From Erythrobasidium yunnanense (taxonomy: Eukaryota; Basidiomycota; Cystobasidiomycetes; Erythrobasidiales; Erythrobasidiaceae), in the NCBI GenBank assembly GCA_001600175.1, contig BCJC01000006.1:821968-885967 (forward strand): a DNA stretch of 64,000 nt. The letters are read 5' to 3'. Below, in pieces: positions 24,289-40,259 of this stretch (within the stretch, counting starts at the first letter, position 1; the number at the start of each line of letters is the position of its first letter). The translations under genes and the position numbers were made by a program. Below the pieces are notes generated by a model. That model searched no databases and was not told the origin of the DNA. It saw only the letters and a list, made by a program, of their open reading frames with translations.

Positions 24289-25059
24289 ATGAAAGGGTGG
24301 TACTGCACTTGTAAATGTATGTTATCCACGCCGATGAAAGTCCCGAAGGCCTGCTGCCTATCCTCAAACACGAGCGGTACAGGCTGATCGTAGGCTTCTA
24401 AAAGGGCCGCAAGATCTGAGGCTGCGTAAAACGGGACTGCGTCAATATCTATCCTGGTCTCGGCTCAGGTATGAGACCTGAACTCACTGGTCAGCTTGTG
24501 AAGATGTGCTCTGTTCTGAGGGAAGACAACTGGCACCTGCACGAATGCCGGAACTTGGCCAGAAGTAAGAGGTCCAAGGATACGTAGAGGAATGTAAGGA
24601 AGGTCATAAGGGTGGACGAGCTTATTGTGCTTGCGAGCGTGTTCCCGTTCAGCGCTGTAGACGAGCCAGAGAGGGCTCAATCTCTGATGTATGGTATAGT
24701 CAGGGCCTGACATACTTCAGGTCATGCGTGCGTTTGTGATAGAGTAAGCTGGCGTTCATTGCTTGATTGCTTGCTTGGACTTGATTAGCGTCCTTGGGTA
24801 GGTGACTATCTTCAATGCGTAGACCTCGCATCCCGTCGTTCAGGGTTCGCGTTCTGGAATCCATACGCTGGAGAATGGCGGTGGTCTGGGGCATGCTGTC
24901 GAGTGTCTGTTGGGTCTCGCCTAGCATTTGCCGCATTTGAGCATGCATTTCTCCCATCTGGGCACTGAGCTGTTCCAGCGAGGCCTGCATTGCTTGTGCC
25001 CACAGCGGAGCGTCATTCTGATATTCGATTTGTCCTTGCATGTCGTTGTGGGCAGTCAT
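24289..25059 (-). CDS. Unrecognised protein with coiled-coil-like N-terminus
   Basis: Three exons are supported by clean splice sites (donor near 24717, acceptor near 24685, a second intron at about 24493-24438) and end at TAA 24291-24289. The chosen start begins MTAHNDMQGQIEYQ; the frame is open further upstream to a Met at 25257, but that extension looks non-coding. The first part (WAQAMQASLEQLSAQMGEMH and onward) has heptad-like spacing and may form a coiled coil. The remainder is well-folded in appearance (HDLRLSPLWLVYSAEREHAR, YDLPYIPLRILGPL, PVPLVFEDRQQAFGTFIGVD). I do not recognise a family. It sits just outside the hydantoin cluster and is transcribed in the same direction as the racemase next to it. 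Confidence 0.6.
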
Positions 25060-25316
25060 CAAGAGAGTTGGCGGTCTGCGCACTGGCCAAGCGCCTGAAG
25101 AACAAGCCGGCCCACAAGTCCAGATGAAGGATTCAAGAAAAGATGAATGCTCGATAGCAGTAAGGTAAATCCAATCAGTTGTGCTCGCTGCCGATGACTG
25201 TGTGCTCCAAATAGGAGGAAGTTGCAGTAAACTACTGTAGTATCGATGCAAGGACAAGGAGCATTTTCATGAACATTTCCACAAGCACAAAGAAGGGAAC
25301 ACGATCCTCGAGCATC

Positions 25317-26098
25317 TTATCTCACCAACAACTGCCCAGCAATAGCTCTCAATCCAGCCTTCGACGCGTCGACTATTCTGACTTCTCCACACCCTGTATC
25401 TCTTGCACCTTGAGCCATCCACTCCTCCATGCCAGCAAAGCCTGCACATCCCATAATGATAGCTTCTGCCCCTTTCAGAGCTACTTTCCCAGCCGTCTCT
25501 TTGACGAGTCTTTCGACCCTCGCCTGGTCTGGGCCTCTAAGTTCTAGCACTTGCAGACCGGAAGTGACGCAGCCTGCCCATCTGTCACTTCCGCTACTAC
25601 CTAGGTATGCACTGATGCCTTTGTGCAGAAGTGGCTTCCAGCCTGTACCGGTTGAAGCAACTCCAAATTTACGAGATGTGACCAAGCATTCATTGACCGC
25701 TGCTTCGAAGATGCCCAAGCAGTATTTGCTCGAGGTAGGACCTAGCTCGTCTCGTATCATTTGCTGAAGAGGATGATCGGAAACTATGGAGATGAATTGA
25801 AGGTAGGCGAGGCTGCTCAGCTTGATAGATTCCGCAAATCGAATGGGGCTGAATACGTACAGCAGCACACCAAGAAAGCATCATACTGATCGATCAGTCC
25901 CTTCTTTACGATATCTTCGTAACAATGCGTGGAAGTCGTGTTCATCGTCCGGAAGTCGCTTATAGCCTTCGCAGCATGAGGCGGGGCAGTATAGTAGGTG
26001 ATGGAGATATCCTTGGGGCATATTGGATCTAGAGACTCTGCGATCCCGCGAGTTATGGATTCAGACGAGTTTGGATTGATGACCAGGACCTTGGGCAT
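25317..26098 (-). CDS. Hydantoin racemase (Asp/Glu racemase superfamily, DCG1-like)
   Basis: Exons 26098-25861 and 25783-25317 give 234 residues. The start MPKVLVINPNSSESITRGI is characteristic of hydantoin racemases and yeast Dcg1. Two catalytic cysteines are visible, one in AFLVCCFSDHP (its exon junction follows the second Cys) and one in IIMGCAGFAGM, as needed for a two-base, cofactor-free racemisation at C5 of the hydantoin ring. FGVASTGTGWKP and ELGPTSSKYCLGIFEAA are further family blocks. It shares a 236-bp promoter with the D-hydantoinase gene, which is direct context for the role: converting L-5-substituted hydantoins to the D form. Dcg1-type proteins of unknown function are the alternative. 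The protein is probably cytosolic; no targeting signal is seen. Confidence 0.85.
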
Positions 26099-26334
26099 GA
26101 CTGAACTGAGGAAATCGAATGAGATGGTCGTAACTGTAAACAGATTCTGCTAACTTGCTCCCTTCGTTCGTATACTTGTAGAAGATAAGAGGGAATTCGG
26201 CTTCTTTAACCCTTATCTCCAACGGCCAAGGTTTGCCCGGGTTCTCCTCAGGGAGGGAAGATGAGGAAGAAGATGGAACGATACGGATCCAGCTTCCTTC
26301 TGTACCACATCACCTATTACATTAAACCTGGAAG
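26099..26334. promoter_or_regulatory. Shared divergent promoter of racemase and hydantoinase genes
   Basis: These 236 bases drive two genes in opposite directions. GATA-factor sites lie at 26184-26189 (GATAAG) and 26212-26218 (CTTATCT). CGGCCAA (reverse of TTGGCCG) lies at 26223-26229, five bases after the second GATA site. A CCCGGG follows at about 26236-26241. The GATA sites suggest nitrogen catabolite control; TTGGCCG recurs in the other two divergent promoters of the cluster. Confidence 0.65.
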
Positions 26335-28203
26335 ATGACTTTCGACCTGGACCTCATTATCCGCAATTCGATAGTTGCAACTGCCAGCGACGAGTTCGCT
26401 TCTGACATTGGCATAAAGGATGGCAAGATTGTTCTTCTGGCTAGAGATATCGAGGTGCCGCAAGGCTGCGAAGTCATCGATGCGCGAGGCGGCTACGTGA
26501 CGGTAAGAAGAGGCCGAGACAAGAGCATCACGTCGAAGAGATCTGATCTTTGTGGCTTGTCTAGCCCGGAGGAATAGACTCTCATGTCCACATCGCTCAA
26601 TCAGCAGCGAAATCTTTAGGCGCAAAGTCTGCAGATGACTGGACTTCCGCGACCATGTCTGCTTTAGGAGGCGGCACTACGTCCGTGATAGCTTTTGCCG
26701 TCCAGCCTAAAGGAGGATCCATGAAAGCTGCTGTGGACGACTACCACAAGCTAGCTACGAACAATGCCCTCTGCGACTATTCCTTCCATGTCATCGTGAC
26801 AGATCCGACGTATCAGCAAATGCATGAAGAAATGCTTGGACTGATGGAGTCTGGCATCACAAGCGTCAAGATCTATTCGACCTACCCTGCGCTTCAACTG
26901 AACGACACGCAAATCCTAGATACGTTCTATGCAGCCAGACAGCACGGCTTTACCGTCAGTAAGTCGCCATCTTTCCTATACGTGCCTCTAAACAAGCTGT
27001 ACTCACGCTAGTTGTGCTTGCAGTGGTCCACGCCGAGAACGCAGACATGATAGCCTGGTTCACTAAAGATCTCGAAGCGAGAGGAATGACAGAGCCCTGG
27101 CATCACGGAACATCTCGTCCACCCATCGTCGAAGCAGAAGCCACGAATCGTGTTCTAGCACTGAGCGAGATCATGGATTGTCCCGTGCTCTTTGTACACG
27201 TATCGGCCCCAGAAGCGATTCGAGTTATCCGGGATGCTCAAGCTCGAGCTCTAAGTGTGTATGCGGAGACATGTCCACATTATATGCTGCTCACAGCTCA
27301 GGAGATGCGTGCGCCGGGCTTCGAAGGTATGTCAAGCGATGTATCAGTGATGTTGCGGCTGATTGGTTGCTCGACCAGGCGCAAAGGCTTGCTGCGCTCC
27401 TCCTCTGCGTGAAAATCCAGCGGACAGACAGAAGGTTTTCGAAGGCCTTCTGAACGGTACTCTGACCGTCTTCTCTTCCGACCATGCTCCAACTAAATAC
27501 AATGATCCGGACGGCAAGCAGGTCAGACCTTGGTTCACTTGACTCCTCAGCGAGCTGACATCTGTATGATAACGCAGCTCGGCCTAACGAAGAACCCTGG
27601 CAATAACCCACGCGGAAACTTCAGATATATTCCCAATGGACTGCCTGGCGTTGAGACCAAAGGACCTCTACTGTGGTCGGAAGGTGTCTGTACAGGCAAG
27701 ATGTCCGTCACGAAGTTTGTGGAGCTCAACTCTACCAATGCTGCGAAACTATATGGCATGTACCCTCAGAGTAAGTTCGCATTTGTAATATGACATCGGA
27801 GGATGGCTTACGCCAGTGTGACAGAGGGGACAATTGCGCCTGGAAGTGACGCAGATCTCATCGTCTGGCGGCCGGCTAGCGAGAGAAAGCCGTTCAAGCT
27901 TTCCGTGGACAGGGTGAGGTCTAACGTTATTCGGGGGTTCACACTGACTCCAGCTGACGCGGTTCTTCTTCATAGTTGCATTCGCAATGCGATTACACGC
28001 CATTCGAGGGTTTGACAGTCAACGACTGGCCTTTGAAGACTATCTTACGCGGGAAAGTAGTGTATGATGGAGATAAGAATGAAGTCTACGCCAAAGCAGG
28101 ATACGGTCAATGGTTGAAGAGGGGGAAAAGCATACTGCAGGGTCCTCAGCATAGATGGCTATCTGAATGGCGGCCCAAATATGAGGAAGAACGTAGCCTG
28201 TAG
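26335..28203 (+). CDS. D-hydantoinase / dihydropyrimidinase
   Basis: A metal-dependent cyclic amidase that opens 5-substituted hydantoins to N-carbamoyl-D-amino acids, or dihydropyrimidines to carbamoyl-beta-amino acids. Seven exons (ends 26502, 26958, 27326, 27521, 27770, 27913, 28203) give 505 residues, the usual length. Metal-site marks are GGIDSHVHI (HxH), the carboxylatable Lys in SVKIYSTYPALQL, VHAEN, ETCPHYML and the Asp in FSSDHAPT. NPRGNFRYIPNGLPGVE and KGTIAPGSDADLIVW near the end are typical of the family. The exon order and key residues are intact. Context (racemase and D-carbamoylase as direct neighbours) favours D-hydantoinase over pyrimidine catabolism. The C-terminus (EERSL) is not a standard peroxisomal signal, so a cytosolic location is likely. 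Confidence 0.92.
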
Positions 28204-28330
28204 GCTTAAGCAATGTAGTACATAGTCTTCTCGCACGTATAGTTCTTCTTGTAATTCATACAAGACGAGCTCTACCACTTCAGACGCGATTGTGATCCTG
28301 CGATGTGCATTACGACTGAATACAAGCTTC

Positions 28331-29534
28331 TCATAGCTCTAATGAAACATCTTCAGGCTCTACTACACCAGCTTGCTGAGTAATAGGTAAATAATGCTCG
28401 ATCCGTCTATGCTTTTCGAAGCAGAAGGTCTTTGATTTCCCAGCAATGCAAGCGTCCAGATCGATATCTGCCCAGACGACCTCATCTCCCTCCGTCTTGT
28501 TCTCTGCTACGATGTGACCTTGTGGATCGACTACCATAGAGCCAGTAATGAGCGGGTGCTTTCCGTCGTCTACACCGCATCGAGCAGCAGTAATGAGGAA
28601 GGCTATACAAGGAGGGTCAGCTCTTGTTCATGCATGTCCTCAGACATATGGACCTACTGGAATTCGTGTACGCATGCGCCTGGCAGACGAGCTTGTGGTG
28701 GAACATGGCATCTTCGGCTGCAGCTTCTCTAGTGGTAGATTCAGGATCGATGCCCCATAGTTGTGGTGCCCAAGCAGTTGTATTCTGGGACAATGTACAA
28801 GTCAGCAACTCGCTCCTGTCTGCGCAGAGTCAGCCTGACATAGCCAATGCACATGATCTCTACGCCCTGAAGTCCGTACACTCTCCATCCTTCTGCCCAT
28901 CGTCTGTCATTACAGATGAGCATCCCTACAATTGGACTCTTCGCGCCCCCTGCAGCGGCTTTCAAACCAGGTGCTCGGAATGCCTTGAAGCCTAGGTTTC
29001 CTGGGAGGAAGTACCTCTTCTCGAGCTGGTTTGTGACATCTGGATCTTTGCTGAATGGCTCGAATGTACCAGGCAGGTGGATCTTGCGGTATTTGCCTAC
29101 GGTCTTCTTGCTCTTTGCACAAACGTACGAAGCAGTGTTGTAGCGCTCTCCGGATGGAGTCTGCTCTCCGTAGCCGATAGCAACATCGATGCCTAGTGAA
29201 GCAGCTTTCTGGAAGAAGGGCTGGAGAGCAGGAACATCTGTGATGCCAGTCTCTGGCTCCTGCTCAAAGTATGAGGCGAGCTCTGCATCTTTCAGATCTT
29301 CAAAGTAGTAGCGAGGAAAGAATGTTGCTGCAGCCAGGGAAAGCGTTAGCGAGTGTCACGCAGCAAAGTGTCGATCTTCTTACAAAAGGTAGTTTCCGGG
29401 AACACAGCAAGCTTGACGCCTTTGAGAGCTGCATCATCGAGTAGCTTTTCCAAACGAGCAAGGATAATTTGACGAGACTCTCCTCTATCAATACGTCCGA
29501 CTTGGATAGCTGCAACGCGTAGATTTCTGGGCAT
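28331..29534 (-). CDS. N-carbamoyl-D-amino-acid hydrolase (D-carbamoylase, nitrilase superfamily)
   Basis: Exons 29534-29384, 29327-28840, 28784-28658 and 28602-28331 give 345 residues. The Glu-Lys-Cys triad of nitrilases is present: Glu in VFPETTF, Lys in GKYRKIHLPG, Cys in MLICNDRRWAEGWRVYGLQG. The ICNDRRW sequence, the LEKRYFLPGNLGFKAFRAPG block and the IGYNTTAWAP junction closely follow bacterial D-carbamoylases (Agrobacterium type) rather than eukaryotic beta-ureidopropionase. The reaction removes the carbamoyl group as CO2 and ammonia, yielding a D-amino acid. The gene shares a promoter with a D-amino-acid oxidase, the next step. Eukaryotic examples of this enzyme are uncommon as far as I know, so ancient transfer from bacteria followed by intron gain is a reasonable inference. 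Confidence 0.88.
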
Positions 29535-29804
29535 GGTGTCGGAGAAGGATCTGGCTTTTGGCAGGATGATATATTGAAGCTTTACTGATCCAAGATCTTG
29601 CTGTGAGCGTGCTGAGGGCTATCCTGTAAGTCTACACCATCCATGGGCTTATCTCCCCTCCCCGCTGACCCGGTCACCGGGCAAGGCAGTTGGCCGCGCC
29701 CAAGTCCGTCCCTCCGGGTACTTGGATCATTTGAAGTCAGCGAAGTAGCGATGTGAGCATCCATCTGAAAGCGCTCTGGATATTCAAATCGTCAGAAGAC
29801 TGTG
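29535..29804. promoter_or_regulatory. Shared divergent promoter of D-carbamoylase and D-amino-acid oxidase genes
   Basis: A 270-bp region between two start codons. It holds one GATA-factor site, CTTATC at 29648-29653, the 13-bp palindrome at 29669-29681, and TTGGCCG at 29690-29696 with a CG-rich flank. All three elements lie within 50 bases, mid-way between the genes, as expected for a control region serving both. Confidence 0.65.
29669..29681. promoter_or_regulatory. Palindromic candidate operator CCCGGTCACCGGG
   Basis: Six-base arms form a perfect inverted repeat about a single central base. Read as CCG-N5-CGG it matches an everted pair of the CGG half-sites bound by dimeric Zn2Cys6 regulators, and such a regulator is encoded 6 kb away in the same cluster. 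Binding is an inference. Confidence 0.5.
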
Positions 29805-31190
29805 ATGCCTCATTATCTTCGTCCTTCAGCTGCGCCTGTCATCGGTAGGTCGAGAAAGGAATCGAAGCGGTTCGACTACTTCTTGGGCTGATTTACGTTC
29901 GGGTTGACAGTCATTGGTGCTGGCTGCGTTGGTCTGACTACTGCCTTGAGATGTCTGCAAGCTGGCTACCCTGTCCTGGTCGTCGCTGAACATCTGCCTG
30001 GCGGACCTCTAATTGCCAATTATGCATCTCCGACTGCTGGAGCCCATCACCTCTCGTTCGCCGACAATGCAGACTGGAGACAGCGATTCCTGGATCAAAG
30101 AACCTTCGACGTGCTCTGGAGCGAAAGCGAGGATGCAGCTGAAGCAGAACGTCGCGGCCTGATGCGATTGACGCAAACCGAATACTACACGGAAGATGAG
30201 GTGCATCTGCGCTTTCTCGAACAGCTACCTGAGGTGAGCACTCTGGCATGAACTGCAGATGACCGGCTTTGACTGATCTGGAAAATTTGCAGTTCCGCGT
30301 CCATCCTGAGAAGACGCTTCCATCGTTCGCAAAGCACAGTTGTTCCTTCACATCTCTCACCATAGAGCCAGCAAGGTATCTCTCTTACCTCGTCAAGCGT
30401 GTGCAAACCCTAGGCGGTGTGATCAAGCGGGCTCCACAACTCTCCAGCATCCGGGAAGCACGCAAGTATGCGAGACAGCCAATTGCGATTATCAACTGCA
30501 CAGGTCTAGGAGCCAGAGATCTGGAAGATGTCCGTGACAAGGAGGTACATCCTGTGCGAGGCCAGGTTCTATGCTTGGATGCACCTTGGCTCAAAAGCGG
30601 ATGGACGTTCCAGATTGGCAGTCTGAGCGGTGGAGAAGGAGGTGCCAGAACGTACATCATACCTCGAGCCAGCGGGGAGGTTATTATCGGAGGCACACGC
30701 GAAGTAGATGATTGGTGAGCCGATCCGCAACCCTTCGACCATTTGTACAAGCTGACCCAAGCATGTTTTGCAGGAATGAAAAGCCTAGACTGGAGACCTC
30801 AGAAGATATTCTACGACGAGCGCTGCAGATCTGTCCGGTGCTTGCCGGCCCAAGCGTGGAAGGTCAATCCGATGAGATCAAGCTAGCCAAGCTTCGGACT
30901 CTCGTGAAAGCAGAAGTAGTAGGCTTTCGTCCTACGAGGCGTCAAGGCATTCGCCTAGAGCACGATGAGTCACTCTCGAAGAAAGTCGGGACGCCAATCG
31001 TGCACAACTATGGTCATGGAGGTTAGGATCCCTAATTTACAGATATGCTACTTTGGAGCTGACCTCGTAGTCTGTGTGCATAGGCTATGGCTGGCAGAGC
31101 TCTTGGGGTAGTGCAGAAGAGGCTGTCAGAATAGCTGGAGAAGCCATTAGAGCGTCGCAAGCTGGGTCGATCATCTCTGCGAAGTTGTAA
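29805..31190 (+). CDS. DAO1: D-amino-acid oxidase, peroxisomal
   Basis: An FAD enzyme oxidising D-amino acids to 2-oxo acids, ammonia and hydrogen peroxide. Exons 29805-29844, 29911-30233, 30293-30714, 30774-31021 and 31084-31190 give 379 residues. The dinucleotide-binding fold is VIVIGAGCVGLTTALRC; AGAHHLSF and VHPVRGQVLCLDAPW are family blocks; the signature near the end is IVHNYGHGGYGWQSSWG, with the GHGGYG loop that contacts FAD. The first coding exon is just 40 nt and ends inside the Rossmann motif. The last residues, ISAKL, form a peroxisomal PTS1 signal, as in many DAOs, placing peroxide production next to catalase. Divergent pairing with D-carbamoylase links it to hydantoin-derived D-amino acids. 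Confidence 0.93.
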
Positions 31191-31502
31191 TGGGTTGTAT
31201 ACAAGTAATCTTAGAAGGACCTAGATGGCCTGATAGCGCACTCACTAACCCGGCTCACCGCATCCCTCGCAACTGATGATCAGGTCAGGCAGTCAAGTCG
31301 TAACAGCCCGGAGGCAAAAGAAATTTCGAATCATACTCCAAGGTCGTCTATGTACACATTCACAGCTCTATCAGCCATACTCCGATCTGCAAACTAGATA
31401 TCCACTTCAAATCACTACATTTTTTTATCTGATTATTGGCTAAAGACAGACTAGACAACACTCGCTACACCTTATATCTCACTGAAGGTGCTATTTCAGA
31501 TC
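31191..31502. other. Convergent 3' region between the oxidase and permease genes
   Basis: No gene is seen. It is AT-rich around 31390-31480 and should hold both 3' untranslated ends. CCCGGCTCACCG at about 31248-31259 resembles one side of the palindrome upstream but is not symmetrical and lies away from any start codon. Confidence 0.4.
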
Positions 31503-33497
31503 TCAGAGACTCGGTGCCGTCGAAACGATCTTGGCCAAGGCATCATCGGACTTGTCCTTCTCCAAATTGGAGTCTTCACTACCACTCGCCGCATCTGATT
31601 TGACTTGCGTACGCGAGACAGGCGCAACCAAATTGAGGAGCAGGTAGACAATGGCGGCTGTGCCTGATCCAACTGGCCAGGTCGCTACATAAGCGTAGTA
31701 GGCACCTTTGGGAACGCCGATGGTGGGGTTGATCTGTGGGAATAGAAAGTATCAGATCTCCTGTTGAGGCGTTCACTGCGCGATTGTAGCTTACATTGCG
31801 GACAAATCCAGGCAAGGTAGGTACGATACCGCAGATGAAAGCTGCGACAGCACGCCAATTGAAGCCAGAAGTATACCAATAGGCAGACTCTCTCTTCTGG
31901 AACATGGCTGCTAGCAAGAGCCGCCTCTTCTGAATAACGAGGTAGTCCGCCAACATCACGCCGAGAGGTGGACCCAGGAAGACTGAGTAACCAGCTAGGA
32001 AAGAAGTGAAGCTCTTTGCAGAGTTCTGGATGATCCAAGGGCAGGTGACGAGGCCGAGAAGAGCGCAGAGATATTGACCCCGACGAATGTTGATGTAGCG
32101 AGGGGCGAGGGACATCAGGTCATTGCCGACTGCAGTGGACTGTGGAAGGGTAACGAAAGTCAGTAAGACCTCCAATAGATAAAGGGGAGTGGCGCAAACC
32201 TACATTGGCTGAGATGTTTGTGCTGAACACGGCGAAGCCCCACATAAGAGCGCTGAAGAACTGCGCAGCTCGGTTATGCATGAGGGAAGAGACTTGCAGA
32301 GGGTTCCAGGTCGAGACTCCGTAGATGACTTGAGCAGCAGATGTGACGACTACTCCGAGACATGCGCAGAGCGTCAAGAACACGCTTAGAGATAGGATGT
32401 TGGTCCAGATGACCGTTCTCGGGTTCTTTGCGTATCCTGAATGGAAGATGCTTTAGAATTTGAGTTAAATAAAGGCTGTAAGGTCAACTCACGAGTGAAA
32501 TCGCATACGTTGAGAGCCAGAGTAGCCTTCGGTGCGATTGCGCTTGTCATGGCTGAAAGAAACACAGCTCCCACCGTGTATCCATTTGTGATGTGAGTAC
32601 TCTTGTTGAAAACAGGCCCAAATCCATGTGCAGACGAGACAGCCCAGGCGAACATAACAATTCCGAAGATTGGCATGAGGACGATCTTGACCATGAAGAG
32701 GTAGCGCAGCTTAGAGATGTGAATGTACAGGAGTGGAAGCTGAATGATAAAGAAGATGAAGAAGCACAGCAGCTGTGCTGATGTGACGTGCGCTGAGGCT
32801 GGCAGATGGTTCGGGAAGGTCTTGAAAGAAGGCCAGATGGCTCCTAGCATGACTTGGGTAGCTTGTCCTCCTTGATAAGTCTGCGTTCCGAACCAGACGA
32901 TGGCAGCGCTATTTCGAGAGTCAATGAGGCTTCATCCACACGGCTGATGTCCGGCTGCTTACACGGAACGGCAGAGCACCACGATGTAGGTTCCTCGGAC
33001 ACCAAACGAAGCACGCGCAAAGCTGGGCATGTTGATGCCATCTGGATGCTCGGTGAGTTCATCGTGACCAAGTGCGAGACAGACCAGACTTACAGATACA
33101 GCCGACGTATCCAGTGCAAGCACATGCGAGCTAGATAAGGTCGTTAGGGTGTGCACGTAAAGACTATTGTGTGATGACTGACAGAGACAAGGACATGACC
33201 CAGTAGTACAGCACCAATCGCAGCTCCTGGTGAGAGACCGGCCGAGACAGAGGAAGAGGCAACTTGGTATTGGGAAATACCAAATCCTTCGGCGATCCAG
33301 TAGCCGGCCATGCTGAAGAAGCCCCATGTTCGCAGAGGACTGTCCATTGCAACAGGCTGCATATCTTTCTCGGCGGAGATGAGGTCGCCTTGTTCGGTCT
33401 CATGCTCGTTGGCCTGGCGGACCGTGCCATCTTTGCAGACAAGGAGGTCAATCTTCTCAGGCTCGATTCTGATCCGGTCTAGTATGCTCGCGGCCAT
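31503..33497 (-). CDS. NCS1-family permease, Fur type (candidate hydantoin/allantoin/uracil transporter)
   Basis: Secondary transporter of the nucleobase-cation-symport-1 family, with about 12 predicted membrane helices over seven or so exons. N-terminal conserved parts are TWGFFSMAGYWIAEGFGISQ and ASSSVSAGLSPGAA. After two short introns come YGINMPSFARASFGVRGTY and AAIVWFGTQTYQGGQ; later STAVGNDLMSLAPRYINI, LGPPLGVMLADYLVIQKRR and INPTIGVPKGAYYAY. The GVMLADY motif is typical of the Fur branch, which includes uracil, allantoin and uridine permeases; the bacterial hydantoin transporter Mhp1 belongs to the same superfamily. Substrate cannot be read from sequence, but position inside the cluster suggests hydantoins or their carbamoyl products. 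Expected in the plasma membrane. The C-terminal tail is acidic with Lys residues (EKDKSDDALAK), a possible ubiquitylation region. Confidence 0.88.
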
Positions 33498-33844
33498 GGT
33501 GGTAGGAACAGCGCTGAAGGGAGTTCAATTAGCCGGAAAGGGAGACGAGAGCGAAGAGGAGGAAAGTTAGGACAAGAGAATAAGGAGAAAAAAGGAAGAG
33601 AAGATGAAAGCCAATAGTGTTATCTCTGACCATACTGTATCACCTCCTCCCAAGAAAAGAATTGGCCGTTATCTATGAAGGATCTCATAACCTGGGGACG
33701 GGCGATCATGCGGCCAACTCCGATGAGAGGGGAGGGAGAGAATGGAAAAGAAACTTTCGCCGGCCGCACCATGGCGGTTCTGTGATATCCCAACTTCATA
33801 TATATTATATCCCACCACATACCTAGTTTTCATTTTCAGTGCTT
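33498..33844. promoter_or_regulatory. Shared divergent promoter of permease and class II aldolase genes
   Basis: A 347-bp region with two GATA-factor sites (TTATCT at 33620-33625 and 33669-33674) and two TTGGCCG motifs, one forward at 33662-33668 directly abutting the second GATA site, one reverse at 33711-33717. A TATA-rich block (TATATATTATAT) sits at about 33800-33811, some 35-45 bases before the aldolase start codon. Confidence 0.65.
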
Positions 33845-35074
33845 ATGGCTCCCGGAATTCTCATCGACTCGTCAAAGGCGAATGGCGTGGCTAGCCAGCC
33901 AGACCAAGGTCCTCACGCATCTCATATGAAGCAGAGCGTCGCAGCTCTGGACAAGAAGAAGAGCCCGCTTGAGCGTACCTGGCGCGGGAACAAGGCAGGA
34001 ACGGTAAAGTACGAAGGGTATCCAGACTTCAAGGGCGACAAGTACGCAGAGCGGGACTATGTCAAGGTAGGCAGAATAGTCCGAGATACTTTCGAGGAGT
34101 TAAGTTGAATGGTTTGGCTCTATCCAGCAACATCTTGCTGGCGCCTTTCAGTACTGGGGAAAGATGGGCTTCGGCGATGGTGGGTATCGGACCTTACGCC
34201 CACTCGATGATTGCTTATGCCACGATGCAGGTCTCAGCGGTCACATCACGGTTCGCGACCCAGTCATGCCGGAATACTACTGGATGAACCCCTTCGGAGT
34301 CCATTTCTCCTGCATCACGGTCTCCAAGCTTGTCCTGGTCGACCCGGAGGGCATGGTGTCTGAGCACGGCGCTCAGCTACCGATCAACCAAGCTGGCTTC
34401 CAAATTCACTCTGCGTGTGTCCTTAATCCTCCCCTCGTTTAGACAGCATCAGGGCTGATAGTCTCGGACTCGTGAATAGCATACACCGCGCACGGCCCGA
34501 GATTAACGCTGCCGCGCATTGTCATTCTCTTTACGGCAAAGCCTGGTCGGTATTCGGTGCTCCAGTAGACATTCTTACGCAAGATGCGTGCCTCTTTTAC
34601 GATAACCAGGGAGTGTAAGTCAGACGCGCGTCTGATCTGATCTGAAATGCTGATTTGTTCATCGTCGTCAGCTACGAGAACTTCGGAGGCATCGTCCTGG
34701 CGGCTGAAGAGGGTGAAGAGATCGCCAGAGCGCTAGGCCCTAAATACAAGACGTGCATCCTTCAGAATCACGGACTGTTGACACGTAAGGTTCTCTTACC
34801 ATCGATGCATCATCCCCGCTAACGACCCTCCTTACATATAGTCGGCGACACTGTAGACGAGGCCACCTATTTCTTCGGTGCGCTCGAGCGAATGTGCCAG
34901 GTCCAGCTACAAGTAGAAGCTGCCACTGCCAATGGACGGAAGATGCGGACGATCGGGAACGAAGAGGCAGCCTTCACCGCCGCGACCTTGCAGTACCCGG
35001 AGAATGTATGGGCCAACTTCCAGACAGAGTACGGCCTGCTACTCCAGGAGCGTGGCCACCTCTTCCTGCAGTGA
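33845..35074 (+). CDS. Class II aldolase/adducin-domain enzyme
   Basis: Six short-intron exons encode a zinc-dependent aldolase fold. Marks are GLSGHITVRDP near the start of the domain, the metal-binding AAAHCHSLYGKAWSVFG (HxH) and LQNHGLLTLGDTVDEA (third His). The ATG at 33845 is the first in frame. An N-terminal arm of about 60 residues precedes the domain. Members include fuculose-phosphate aldolase, decarboxylases of 3-oxo acids and many fungal proteins of unknown role, so the reaction is not known. Sharing a promoter with the cluster permease suggests it handles a product of the pathway, for example an oxo or hydroxy acid released after deamination. The metal ligands look intact, so it should be an enzyme rather than an adducin-like structural protein. 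Confidence 0.85.
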
Positions 35075-35133
35075 TTGTTGTGTTCTGTGGCCTTGTAGGT
35101 GGCCTTGTAGCATTCTTTTCGGTTCGGATAATT

Positions 35134-37533
35134 TCATGATGCGAAGGATCCCGCAAAAGGACCGCTTGCAATGTCTTGCAGCTGACTACCGAACGGTTGA
35201 GTATCGCCTTGACCCAGCGCAGAGAGCCATTCGTCCAAATTTGGCCAAGAATAATCGGTATTCCAGAGCAGTCTGAAGTCGCCCGCCTGATTTACGTCTC
35301 CAGTATTGACGAAATGGGAGGAGGTATCCTCGACGGACGCTGTCCTACTCGTACTAGATATGGACTCCTCTTGACCTTCAAGAGCCGCAATCAAGGCGCT
35401 ATAGTCGCTTCCTGGCGCTGATATTGCACGAAGTCTGCCGGAGACCTCAACAGCCCGTTTAAGTGCTGCCTCCGCCGAAATCCATCCGTGCTCAGCACGG
35501 GCAGCAGTCAACGCAGCACACAGCCTTCTAGCCATTGCAATAGGATGGAGAATTATGACGTCGGAGCCTTGAAGCTCTAAGCCTGAGGTCACGCTTGCCA
35601 AAGATAACCGAATCAGAGAGGAAAGGCATGATGACAGTATATGACTAGCGTCTGATATAGGTGTGCACGTAAGCCACTGGCAGCATAATCATAAGACAGC
35701 GACTCACAAGGAAGCCAAAATCCCTCCATTTGCGAAGCTTGTATGGACTGCACAAAGGTGACGAAGCGATTGAAGATGTCGAGACTGCGCTTGCTCGGCT
35801 GAAAGTTCGAGCCTAGGCCAATTGCAAGTTCGATAGAAATGCGATGAACCATACATCGGAAGCCGTACAGGTGAAGCTGCAGATTGGCTGTCAAGGGTAG
35901 AGATACATTAGCATCATAGAGAGGACATGTCAAGCTGTCCTACCATTGCCTGGTGATCCCATATTTGACGAAGCAACGTGGAGGTCTTCAGATAGATCGG
36001 CCAATTCTAGCTCGACGTCTTGGCAGGTTGTGAGATTCGCGCGTCGCCGACTTTCACCGCTGTTGCTGACGGTACAAATTTCGCTCTGGAAGCGAGCAAC
36101 TATACTTGCTAGACGGCACATATAGACGAAGGCGGGTGCATCTTGGCCAATGGTTGGAAGGCTAACGCTAGAGTTGCCTTGCTGAAGCAAAGATGGTCGT
36201 GAATTGAGGAAAGACGACCACGCGTCGTGTATTCGAATTGTCCACCAAAGCCGACTTCGCAGATGTCGCTCAGCTTGCGCGATTCGCCAAGTTGAGGGAT
36301 CGAGATGTAAGCCTAGCAATTGAGCTTGTGCTATAGTCTATAAGCACTCATATTAGCTTCGAGCTTTACAAGAATGCGGATAGGATTTACCTTAGCAAGC
36401 AGCAGGTAGTCTCCCCTAATATCCAAAGGAGGCCTAGCGCACAGCTCGAGTAGGGCGAATGTGATGCTATCAAGCTCCCCTTTCTCGACGAGGCTGTCGC
36501 CAAGCGAAGACTCCTTAATGGTCTCCCACAAGAAGTTTTGCAGGTTCCTGGCTCGCAGATGCGACTCGGTACTTTTCGCGACAACGGCAATCTGCACGGC
36601 CTTGTTAAGGTGTGCGTATGAACCGCGTTCTGTACTGGTAAGCACTGGATATGCGGCTTGAAATCTGTCCAGATAGTTTCCGAATAATGCATTGGTCTCG
36701 AGGCCGTGTAGCGTGAGGAGAGATGTTACACGTCTGTACAGCGCTTCAGTCGCTTCACCAGCTGATCGACGATGTGCAGGGATTGGGTGAAATACGAAGA
36801 AGGTAGGTCGTCCAGTCGAGATTTGGATGTGATCGCTACCATGATGATGTGTCGTCAAAGGCGAATTGTTCGGCAGACCTTCTTTGGCCTTGACAGGGAG
36901 TAGATCGTCCGTGACAAGCGTAGTAATCACGCTCGCCTCGCACCCATCGCGATGCAGAGGATTGGGAGGTGCGCTAATTGGGGAGGTCAGAGGTGCCGAC
37001 ACAGTTGGCAGCGGTATCGAAGGAAAGCTCTGGAAGGTAGTGTCTTGGGTGAGGATGTTTCCCAAATCTGACATCGAGGCGATTTCGAAACGTTTCGAGG
37101 CAGAGTCCTCGAAGTCTGGTGAACGCTGCCTCGCGACGTTATTGTATCCATTTGGGACACTGTATGATCCAGAATTGGCATATTGTAGGTCCAGCGGCAG
37201 GTTTGTCAATGTCGACGGGCTTATCGCTGTCCCGCTAGAAACAGGTGCTTGATCGCTTGCGGCCGGCTCCGCAGGCTGGCGTCTACGTTCAGTAGGAGGT
37301 GCGATGAAAGTACAGTCTTTACCAGACTGCTTGCATTCAACGCAAGGCTGCCCGACCTCGAGTATCGTGCACCGACTCTTCCTTCTTCTGCATGCGTCGC
37401 AAGGTCTAGCTTTACGTGAACGAAATGGTCGAATGCCAATATTCTTGTCATCGCTAGGCGGAGGCCTTGAGGTACACGCGGCTGCAAGAGCAGAGCCCAA
37501 AGGCGAAGTCGAGGACTCGCCGTTCTCGGCCAT
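35134..37533 (-). CDS. Zn2Cys6 transcription factor with fungal-specific regulatory domain (candidate cluster regulator)
   Basis: Near the N-terminus, RPCDACRRRKSRC and then GQPCVECKQSGKDC supply the six cysteines of a binuclear zinc cluster. A Ser/Pro-rich linker follows, then the fungal transcription-factor domain (QLLGLHLDPSTW and LRSRLWWTIRIHDAW, with SRPSLL). Exons begin at 37533, 36337, about 35885 and about 35660; donor and acceptor pairs with matching phase restore an open frame through all of them, ending in an acidic tail. The LGLHLDPSTW...LRSRLWW arrangement resembles regulators of the Dal81/TamA group, which act with GATA factors in nitrogen catabolism; that closer placement is tentative. 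It is convergent with the aldolase gene (59 bp between stops) and is the only regulator in the cluster, so control of the hydantoin genes is the simplest inference. Confidence 0.85.
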
Positions 37534-37740: not shown

Positions 37741-40245
37741 TCACAACTTAGCCAGCTGTCTTTCCACGACTTCTGTGTCCCGCCTATACTTCAAGAACCA
37801 CTTTGCAGCATCCTGACGCTTCGTCATATCCATTCCCGTAGCTACCGTCTTGAACAATATCTGGTATAGCGCATGCCGGCTTTCCGTTTCCTCAGCATTG
37901 TTGGCATTCAACAATTCTGCTTCTTCGCCCAAGAACCATTGAATGCGCTCCAGAACCCCGCCCAGGTACTCCTCCGTCACAGCAGATGCTTGATCGATTA
38001 GGAGAATGAGGAGGTGGCCCCTCGGCGAGCGCAAGGCTGACCGTTCCAATGCATCGCCGGAGAGCGCGTCTTCTAACCGAGTCTTTGATTCGTCTAGCAG
38101 GGTATCTACAGCTGCTCCAGGTGTCTCGGAGACCTCTGGCATCGAAGACTCCTGTTCACGGGATGCAAGGTCGCCCTGAGATACATCCGCGAGCGACGAA
38201 CTCGTCTGGGGTGCAATGGTCGCCGTATCGTTACTTGTGCATAGAGGAGCTGGATTTGGGATGGCCGCAATCGCATGGGTTAATGCATCTAGGCAAGAAT
38301 AGGCTAGACTTTGCTCCATCTCGCAAAGACAGCTCATCATAGTTGAGAAGGCCAGGCGGAGCTGAGATATGGTCATGAGATTTGGATAAGCCTGGAAGGT
38401 AGATCAGCCGTATCCCTGGCAAGAGAAGCGACTGTGTCCATAGCGCTGGCACTTACTATAAGCAGGATTCTCGTATATTCAAGAGCAATCCCCAAGCCGG
38501 CTTTCTTCCTCCGAGCATATACAGCAAGCATCACGGAATGTGCAGCTTCAAAAGTTTCCAGATATCGCTTCGAGCCAAGGTATCTGAGTTCGCAGGATGA
38601 GGTTGCGGCAGGAAGTAGACAAGCACGCATCAGCATAGCTTTGAGTATATCTACTTTGCGTAGGACACTTACGGTTGAGCTATCGGTAATACAGCTTGCT
38701 CGATATAGTCGTTCGAAAGCGGGACTACCAGCTGCTCTACAGCATTCAAGTAGTACGTGATCCTGCTCCTTTGTACCACGGCACCCTCCATTGCTACATC
38801 GTCCGTCCAATCACTTTCGGGCTGCTTGCTAGTCTCTATAGGCTGTATGCTTTTTACGATGTCTTGAACTCTGCCTTCTGGCTTGGCGTGTACGATCAAG
38901 TCTAGTGTCCCGTACCAGACTCCCTTGTATGCGCCAAAGCCTTCTGTGCCGAACTGTTGGGTGACGAAATATAATGATGAGAAGGTTCTTAGTGCACAAG
39001 CAGCCAGATCGACAATCGTATCTTGGCAAGAGGCAGTAAGAAGGGAAGAAGAGGAGGAGGAAGATACAGGTAAAGAGTTCAATAAAGAGACCAAAGATGC
39101 GTATATCATCGTCGTGGTGAAGAGAAGTGTCTTCAAGATTGTCCAAGGCTCGTTTTGACTCCGCGTGTCAGGATGTAGATCCTCTGCCCCAGCGACATTG
39201 CTCCACTTGCTCCGCTCCCAATCATGCTGAATCGCGGCTATATCAGCTTCGAGGGCTACCAGGTGGCCTAGAACAATTTGCAGGGCAGTCTGGGATGAGG
39301 AGGATTCGATGACTTTGCCAATGACTCGCGAAAAGCGTCCCAGTTGATTGTAGGCTGGAGAAGCTACGATCTCATGTAGCCGGGAGTAGGAAGGGCTGTT
39401 AGGCTGCAAGCCTGGACGACTCAGCTCTGAGGTATGGGCATTCAAGAGCAGATCTACCTTCCACAGTAGCCCTTCATTTGTTTCCTCTATATCCTGAGAT
39501 AGATGCTCGAACAGTCTACCTCGATAGAAGCAGTCTCGAACATGGCCGAATGCGAAGTCAAGAAAGGGCTTTATTTGAAAACTGCGCGTCAGCATTTTCC
39601 TTCGGGCTCTTCGGCGGATTTAGCAATTACCTCTGAGCATAAGGGCTTGAGATACTCCGAAGGTATGTCTGGCAAGCATTGACAGGCCAGCCAAGCGACA
39701 AATCCTTGATCACATTCGGTCAAAGTGGGTGCCGTATCCGCCCAGATCGCTGCCACTTGCTTCTCCAGCTTGGAAGTTGCCCATTTCGATGAGACAGCCA
39801 GCTCGGTCTTTCTGTTGATCTGCGCCTGGAGTCCAGCTAGAGTCGCATTCGACAGCAGCAGGGCTGCCAGAGGCTGAGCAGAGGCATGAGCAGCGGTTCG
39901 CAACGTGCTGCATATTCTATCTAGCGTGTTTCCTAGGCGTCTTCTCGTGTTCCAGCCTGATCCATGCACGGTCTGGGTATGGTGTAGCCGGGTCATAATG
40001 CCATACTGGACAGCTGAGAAGACATCTTGCAGAGGCACTTTCCAGAGACTTTGGGAGTTGAGCATTGCAGCGAACAGCGAGCATAGTTGCGCATCGTTCA
40101 GGTCGAGCGAGGATATGGCAGCAGCTACGCCGGCTAAAGTTTGTGTAGGAAGGTCGCCTGGCCATACGAGGTCCACGAGGAGTTGTGAGAGGATAGCAGA
40201 CATGATTCCATCGAAGCAAAAGGTTGGGAAGATGTCAAGAAGCAT
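37741..40245 (-). CDS. PEX8: Peroxin 8 (PEX8), peroxisomal matrix-protein import factor
   Basis: Four or so exons encode an all-helical protein of about 750 residues: first exon from 40245 (or the later ATG at 40203, MSAILSQLLVDLVWPG), then PFLDFAFGHVRDCFYRGRLF, PWTILKTLLFTTTMIYASL and WYGTLDLIV, ending with TEVVERQLAKL. The C-terminal AKL is a PTS1 signal. Fungal Pex8 is a luminal peroxisomal protein carrying its own PTS1 that links the docking and RING complexes and helps release cargo. No enzymatic motif is visible. The identification rests on overall recognised blocks plus the terminal signal. Being next to a cluster that makes a peroxisomal oxidase may be coincidence. The splice between IAQP and YLGSKRYLETF (intron about 38669-38588) is my best choice among options. 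Confidence 0.7.
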
Positions 40246-40259
40246 CTCTGTCGCTCTTC

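Follow-up and report, generated by a model that had tools for sequence, protein, structure and literature searches.

Can a fungus carry a gene cluster of its own for the breakdown of hydantoins, and what would its substrates be? The question is raised by seven neighboring genes of the basidiomycete Erythrobasidium yunnanense, located at 25317-37533 of a 64,000-nucleotide stretch of contig BCJC01000006.1 (the window, to which all positions refer). An earlier reading of the sequence (the original prediction) had proposed that they form a complete route from hydantoins to an oxo acid. Hydantoin utilization has been described from bacteria and is used industrially for the production of D-amino acids; to our knowledge, its natural substrates are poorly known. 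Our analysis favors a fungal cluster for nitrogen catabolism, with 5-substituted hydantoins, their N-carbamoyl-D-amino acids, or both as substrates, a reading to which we give a probability of roughly 0.6. Such a cluster would work like a bacterial hyu system and appears to be built largely of fungal-type parts.

All seven genes are intact, and Pfam searches with the spliced models place them in the families originally named (Table 1). Splice sites were set by hand; the introns are all canonical GT-AG and 51-77 nt long, no internal stop occurs in any of the seven models, and the Pfam calls for all seven proteins exceed the gathering score. The short spliceosomal introns and the Zn2Cys6/Fungal_trans protein point to a fungal source. 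As first proposed, the structural genes, six in number, are arranged as three divergent pairs next to a Zn2Cys6 regulator; the pairs are racemase(-)/hydantoinase(+), carbamoylase(-)/oxidase(+), and permease(-)/aldolase-fold(+). The racemase, hydantoinase, and D-carbamoylase families, the linkage of which likens the locus to bacterial hyu clusters, lie together inside 25317-29534.

In the proposed pathway, the NCS1 permease would import the ring compound, the racemase would interconvert the hydantoin enantiomers, and the dihydropyrimidinase would open the ring to yield an N-carbamoyl-D-amino acid, from which the D-carbamoylase would free the D-amino acid together with CO2 and ammonia. Acting on the D-amino acid, a peroxisomal oxidase would then yield ammonia and H2O2 along with a 2-oxo acid. 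With acidic substrates, hydantoin-5-acetate would pass through D-Asp to oxaloacetate and hydantoin-5-propionate through D-Glu to 2-oxoglutarate. The Zn2Cys6 protein may act as the pathway regulator, and GATA factors may impose nitrogen control. The enzymatic activities, the substrate, the order of the steps, and any co-regulation or co-expression are predicted here from sequence. The family assignments support a hydantoin-type route to an oxo acid as originally drawn, with the exception of the aldolase-fold protein, which is not a step of that route.

Table 1. Genes and divergent promoters of the E. yunnanense locus, and the bacterial ErtD-like gene discussed in the text
Feature	Position	Strand	Description
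Racemase, Asp/Glu/hydantoin family	25317..26098	-	234 aa, 1 intron; PF01177 Asp_Glu_race 131 bits
Putative dihydropyrimidinase/hydantoinase, fungal (yeast dihydropyrimidinase) type	26335..28203	+	505 aa, 6 introns; Amidohydro_1 98 bits
N-carbamoyl-D-amino-acid hydrolase (D-carbamoylase) homologue	28331..29534	-	345 aa, 3 introns; CN_hydrolase 131 bits
FAD oxidase, predicted D-aspartate-oxidase type	29805..31190	+	379 aa, 4 introns; DAO 127 bits
NCS1-family permease	31503..33497	-	551 aa, 6 introns; PF02133 Transp_cyt_pur 346 bits
Class II aldolase-fold protein (TqaM/NovR-like)	33845..35074	+	312 aa, 5 introns; PF00596 Aldolase_II 145 bits
Zn2Cys6 transcription factor with Fungal_trans domain	35134..37533	-	744 aa, 3 introns; PF04082 32 bits, PF00172 Zn_clus 29 bits
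Divergent promoter, racemase/hydantoinase	26099..26334		AGATAA 26183(+), 26213(-); CGGCCAA 26223(+)
Divergent promoter, carbamoylase/oxidase	29535..29804		AGATAA 29649(-); CGGCCAA 29690(-); perfect palindrome CCCGGTCACCGGG 29669-29681
Divergent promoter, permease/aldolase-fold	33498..33844		AGATAA 33620(-), 33669(-); CGGCCAA 33662(-), 33711(+)
ErtD-like amidohydrolase (bacterial locus)	L007:6792-8177		Relatives in L008, L010, L048, L052, L065, L080, L084, L086; all upstream of carbamoylases belonging to the window enzyme's clade

Enzymes of the putative pathway

Judged by its sequence, the carbamoylase is a D-carbamoylase relative of bacterial type. It matches the D-carbamoylase 6led in the Protein Data Bank (PDB) with 229 bits, the best nitrilase-family protein other than a D-carbamoylase reaching 43 bits. 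PMC11503299 describes a catalytic triad of Cys172, Glu47, and Lys127 in a Pseudomonas D-carbamoylase, with Asn173 and Arg176 as contacts, and all five are retained in the alignment as C189, E47, K132, N190, and R193. A tree of 94 rows places it with 54 rows from bacteria, most of them Alphaproteobacteria (support 100/99). It is sister to these rows (split 90/87) on a long branch, a placement flagged as unsure in a tree that holds no eukaryotic relative. The GC content at third codon positions is 0.49, versus 0.51-0.67 in the five other structural genes, which is not decisive for horizontal transfer.

The ring-opening enzyme, originally labeled a D-hydantoinase, is on present evidence best classed as a fungal dihydropyrimidinase and not as a bacterial-type D-hydantoinase. 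It passes the NCBIfam model TIGR02033 (dihydropyrimidinase/hydantoinase, EC 3.5.2.2) with 472 bits against a cut-off of 393, and stays under the cut-offs of PRK13404 (589 vs. 647) and of the NCBIfam allantoinase model (227 vs. 358). Its top PDB match is the dihydropyrimidinase 2fty with 446 bits (D-hydantoinase 1k1d, 343 bits), which we take to be the yeast enzyme Pyd2 of pyrimidine catabolism. In a tree of 25 rows including two PDB D-hydantoinases and 2fty as the one fungal relative, the window protein did not group with the bacterial-type D-hydantoinases and paired with 2fty (99/99), with which it also shares a C-terminal EWRPKYE. This pairing is weakened by the long branch and odd letter make-up for which 2fty was flagged, and by raw identities to the window protein that are higher for five bacterial proteins (48-50.5%) than for 2fty (45.5%). 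Seen from 2fty, the nearest row is the window protein, the next being at 41.9%. The dihydropyrimidinase class also opens hydantoins.

Among bacterial plasmids, a dihydropyrimidinase of Klebsiella michiganensis (L003:6992-8452), approximately 49% identical to that of the window, adjoins allantoinase PuuE and ureidoglycolate lyase. A gene of the aspartate/glutamate racemase family directly adjoins the closest plasmid dihydropyrimidinases in three of six stretches (L095:3249-5440, L096:3989-6189, and L098:3265-5428); two of the remaining three lack an adjoining racemase and one is without annotation.

The original prediction of a peroxisomal D-amino-acid oxidase stands as to location and shifts as to type. 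The C-terminus (ISAKL) ends in AKL, a peroxisomal targeting signal, and the last step is likely to take place in peroxisomes. In the PDB, the oxidase is closest to the D-aspartate oxidase 9vpf (334 bits), followed by the D-amino acid oxidases 7ct4 (135) and 1c0i (125) and a second D-aspartate oxidase, 6rkf (109). It is 52% identical to 9vpf over 349 aligned residues, both proteins having the segments GGxRTYIIPR and YGHGG; the window enzyme differs in lying within a hydantoin-type cluster. We take 6rkf to be the human D-aspartate oxidase with a numbering offset of 9, in which case R314 and R257 of the window oxidase, counted along the alignment, would correspond to Arg278 and Arg237. Roles of the pocket arginines Arg216, Arg237, and Arg278 of the human enzyme are described in PMC8260693. 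A peroxisomal, D-Asp-induced role has been described for the D-aspartate oxidase of another fungus, Vanrija humicola. The predicted substrate of the window enzyme is that of the D-aspartate-oxidase type; the side chain is therefore probably acidic, and the 5-methyl- and 5-benzylhydantoin originally suggested are probably the wrong test substrates.

Support for the remaining proteins is more general. Two cysteines of the racemase, C79 and C192, presumably the catalytic pair, fall where the motifs of the Asp/Glu/hydantoin racemase domain would place them, and the protein is presumably Dcg1-like. It has no close characterized relative and no NCBIfam match, and its plasmid matches are 27-32% identical; the racemase label first given is supported at the level of the PF01177 family. 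The permease scores 347 bits against the NCS1 subfamily model TIGR00800 of NCBIfam, just under the cut-off of 353, and is only distantly similar to Mhp1 (62 bits), which does not support the Mhp1-type transporter of the original prediction.

The aldolase-fold protein is nearest to TqaM (9m09, 222 bits) in the PDB, is related to NovR (168 bits), and keeps three histidines, H166, H168, and H231. According to PMC13111500, NovR and CloR carry out the oxidative decarboxylation of a prenylated hydroxyphenylpyruvate with a three-histidine iron site, and PMC4294208 reports from knockouts that tqaM is needed for 2-aminoisobutyrate. Relatives of this protein are widespread, matching 316 plasmid records.

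Gene linkage in bacteria and known systems

A scan of GTDB with the carbamoylase matched at least 595 stretches and yielded at least 585 relatives, from which the best 80 loci were kept for all counts. The counts are not independent, because the loci share ancestry and part of the contigs are short, 54 of the 80 being at least 20 kb long. Bacterial queries found a racemase in 43/80 loci, an amidohydrolase over 150 bits in 33/80, and both in 25/80. With the window proteins as queries (E up to 1e-5), hydantoinase-type matches were found in 40/80 (weak and edge matches counted), racemase matches in 34/80, and aldolase-fold matches in 3/80. By comparison, eight whole genomes of such bacteria, totaling approximately 54 Mb, hold 17 racemase matches at a looser threshold (E up to 1e-3), a count that takes in the linked copies, and chance neighbors would thus be rare. 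Bacterial carbamoylases of this kind frequently have racemase and hydantoinase-type genes linked to them.

Annotated examples include plasmids of Thioclava (L002) and Sulfitobacter (L006) that combine racemase, hydantoinase, and D-carbamoylase, and further carbamoylase with racemase in Roseomonas, and dihydropyrimidinase, D-carbamoylase, and AmaB in Neorhizobium (L088). Counter-examples are found in Pantoea, Agrobacterium, and Rhizobium, the carbamoylases of which adjoin other genes. In the plasmids of Agrobacterium vitis (L087:3001-6924) and Rhizobium ruizarguesonis (L089:3001-6933) the context is a different one, in which the D-carbamoylase lies near a protein with an adenine deaminase C-terminal domain and an alanine racemase.

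Nine of the 80 loci, including three of the four top-scoring ones (L007, L008, and L010), have, at a distance of 1.4-3.2 kb on the upstream side of the carbamoylase, an enzyme resembling ErtD, hydantoin-5-propionate amidohydrolase. Within the 52 loci of the clade of the window carbamoylase, an ErtD-like amidohydrolase occurs in 9, another amidohydrolase in 3, and a racemase in 23. The oxidase type and these ErtD-like neighbors both hint at acidic hydantoins, neither being proof, and the substrate of the cluster probably has an acidic side chain rather than being methyl- or benzylhydantoin. A more specific scenario, offered tentatively as a possibility, is that a hyu-like pathway was rebuilt in the fungus from a native Pyd2-type dihydropyrimidinase, D-aspartate oxidase, NCS1 permease, and Zn2Cys6 regulator together with a bacterial-type D-carbamoylase. 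It would be dedicated to acidic hydantoins (5-propionate or 5-acetate), which might come, for example, from carbamoylated amino acids or from the breakdown of histidine or ergothioneine. Its last step would be peroxisomal, and the aldolase-fold enzyme would trim the oxo acid.

Compared with bacterial hyu clusters, the window has intron-bearing genes in divergent pairs, a predicted fungal dihydropyrimidinase, and a permease distant from Mhp1, and adds the putative peroxisomal D-aspartate-type oxidase, the aldolase-fold protein, and the Zn2Cys6 regulator. Relative to yeast pyrimidine catabolism, the D-carbamoylase, racemase, and D-oxidase are foreign to the route. The Saccharomyces DAL cluster is likewise a nitrogen-catabolic cluster with an NCS1 permease, a cyclic amidohydrolase, and a Dcg1-like racemase; the window differs in having no allantoicase or ureidoglycolate genes, a dihydropyrimidinase as its amidohydrolase, and a carbamoylase and an oxidase in addition. 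No fungal hyu-type cluster was seen among the papers listed by literature searches, one of which was very broad and weak. Viral contigs were scanned with the carbamoylase, the oxidase, and the aldolase-fold protein; these scans are able to find only close relatives, and none was confirmed. A fungal cluster with a D-aspartate-type last enzyme would offer a concrete, testable answer on the substrates of hydantoin utilization, namely acidic hydantoins. It would also supply racemases and D-carbamoylases of eukaryotic origin, and would show how a pathway can be put together from genes of pyrimidine catabolism and genes for D-amino acids.

Divergent promoters and predicted nitrogen control

The GATA-like motif AGATAA is present in all three divergent promoters, an occurrence matched by 1 of 3000 random segment triplets. 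Of the 25 AGATAA and 15 CGGCCAA sites of the whole window, 5 and 4, respectively, fall within these promoters, which together span 853 bp; a simple Poisson estimate gives approximately 1e-5 and 2e-5, respectively, for motifs picked after inspection. In an unbiased count, four 7-mers are shared among the promoters, whereas 1000 shuffles average 0.5 (four reached by 0.5%) and 3000 random segment triplets 0.86 (four reached by 3%). Upstream of the regulator gene, a stretch of 207 bases has neither AGATAA nor CGGCCAA. These patterns are suggestive of GATA nitrogen control, and use of hydantoins as a nitrogen source, as first proposed, is plausible. The palindrome CCCGGTCACCGGG, of the form CGG-N3-CCG, is a possible Zn2Cys6 site. 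In two of the three promoters, CGGCCAA and AGATAA are spaced by 0 and 4 bases (33662-33674 and 26213-26229).

Competing explanations and surroundings of the locus

Several observations weigh against a hydantoin pathway as drawn. His144 and Pro199 of a characterized D-carbamoylase, which are ligand contacts (PMC11503299) rather than catalytic residues and thus not decisive, are replaced in the window enzyme by a Gln before LEKRYF and by NTT instead of NTP; in the 80 bacterial relatives the first position is Gln in 50, His in 26, and neither pattern in 4. The human Arg216 has no aligned arginine in the oxidase, for which R240, also present in 9vpf, is our guess at a stand-in, and 9vpf itself has Met at R257. 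The racemase is far from solved racemases, its one PDB match being allantoin racemase 5lfd with 36 bits, and the dihydropyrimidinase could serve pyrimidine breakdown alone. The aldolase-fold gene is unexplained by the route, and an oxidative decarboxylation of the oxo acid downstream is a guess. Among the 80 bacterial loci, none has an oxidase or NCS1 permease match to the window proteins at E 1e-5. Dihydropyrimidinase over 150 bits is found in 0 of the 52 loci of the carbamoylase's own clade (three partial edge matches reach 98-113 bits) and is linked instead to the other carbamoylase clade, in 21 of 28 loci. The amidohydrolase of L007 has ErtD as its best NCBIfam match at 496, below the cut-off of 600. 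The motif tests are post hoc, and HGATAR overall is not strongly enriched, with 5 sites in the 853 bp of promoter compared with 3.1 per kb in the window.

The same pathway might instead act on hydantoins with neutral or aromatic side chains, its last enzyme being a broad D-amino-acid oxidase, which we regard as rather unlikely. A characterized D-carbamoylase takes the N-carbamoyl derivatives of D-Ala, D-Trp, D-Val, D-Phe, and D-Leu as substrates (PMC11503299), and common fungal ancestry may partly account for the top match of the oxidase; yet that oxidase scores far nearer to D-aspartate oxidase than to either solved D-amino-acid oxidase, and the carbamoylase departs from the characterized enzyme at two ligand-pocket positions. 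A biosynthetic or detoxification cluster, in which the aldolase-fold protein shortens an oxo acid and the breakdown of hydantoins or carbamoyl-D-amino acids is only a supply arm, would give a purpose to the likeness with TqaM and NovR and to the oxidative decarboxylation and 2-aminoisobutyrate requirement described for these. Pfam, however, reveals neither assembly-line nor tailoring functions in the seven genes, and relatives of the aldolase-fold protein are widespread; we consider this explanation improbable.

Pyrimidine catabolism, with the amidohydrolase acting on dihydrouracil as in yeast Pyd2 and the carbamoylase releasing beta-alanine, would fit the grouping of the former with the yeast enzyme, and NCS1 permeases can import uracil. 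This is nonetheless very improbable in our view: the carbamoylase is of D-alpha type, matching the nitrilase/beta-ureidopropionase 3ivz with only 35 bits, beta-alanine lacks a stereocentre and so offers no role to a racemase or a D-oxidase, and no dihydropyrimidine dehydrogenase was seen in 20 other Pfam-scanned stretches, which cover part of the window. Least probable of all we consider an allantoin cluster related to yeast DAL (permease, cyclic amidohydrolase, and Dcg1-like racemase). The yeast cluster does combine an NCS1 permease with the racemase-like Dcg1, the sole PDB match of the racemase is an allantoin racemase, and the Klebsiella plasmid relative of the dihydropyrimidinase adjoins PuuE and ureidoglycolate lyase. 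Against this, the amidohydrolase falls short of the allantoinase cut-off while exceeding that for dihydropyrimidinase, Pfam assigns none of the seven genes to an allantoicase or a ureidoglycolate enzyme, and the carbamoylase and D-oxidase do not fit. We therefore retain hydantoin and/or N-carbamoyl-D-amino acid catabolism as the preferred reading of the locus.

The limits of the cluster are provisional; the open frames that flank it on either side, at 24465-25266(-) and 37744-40257(-), gave no Pfam match in five stretches scanned. Outside the seven genes, 10 of 20 stretches of the window searched had Pfam matches and 10 had none, the matches being to WW, FF, E1-E2 ATPase, F-box, TFR dimer, Na/Ca exchanger, MYND finger, PA, SAM decarboxylase, and ribonuclease T2 families.

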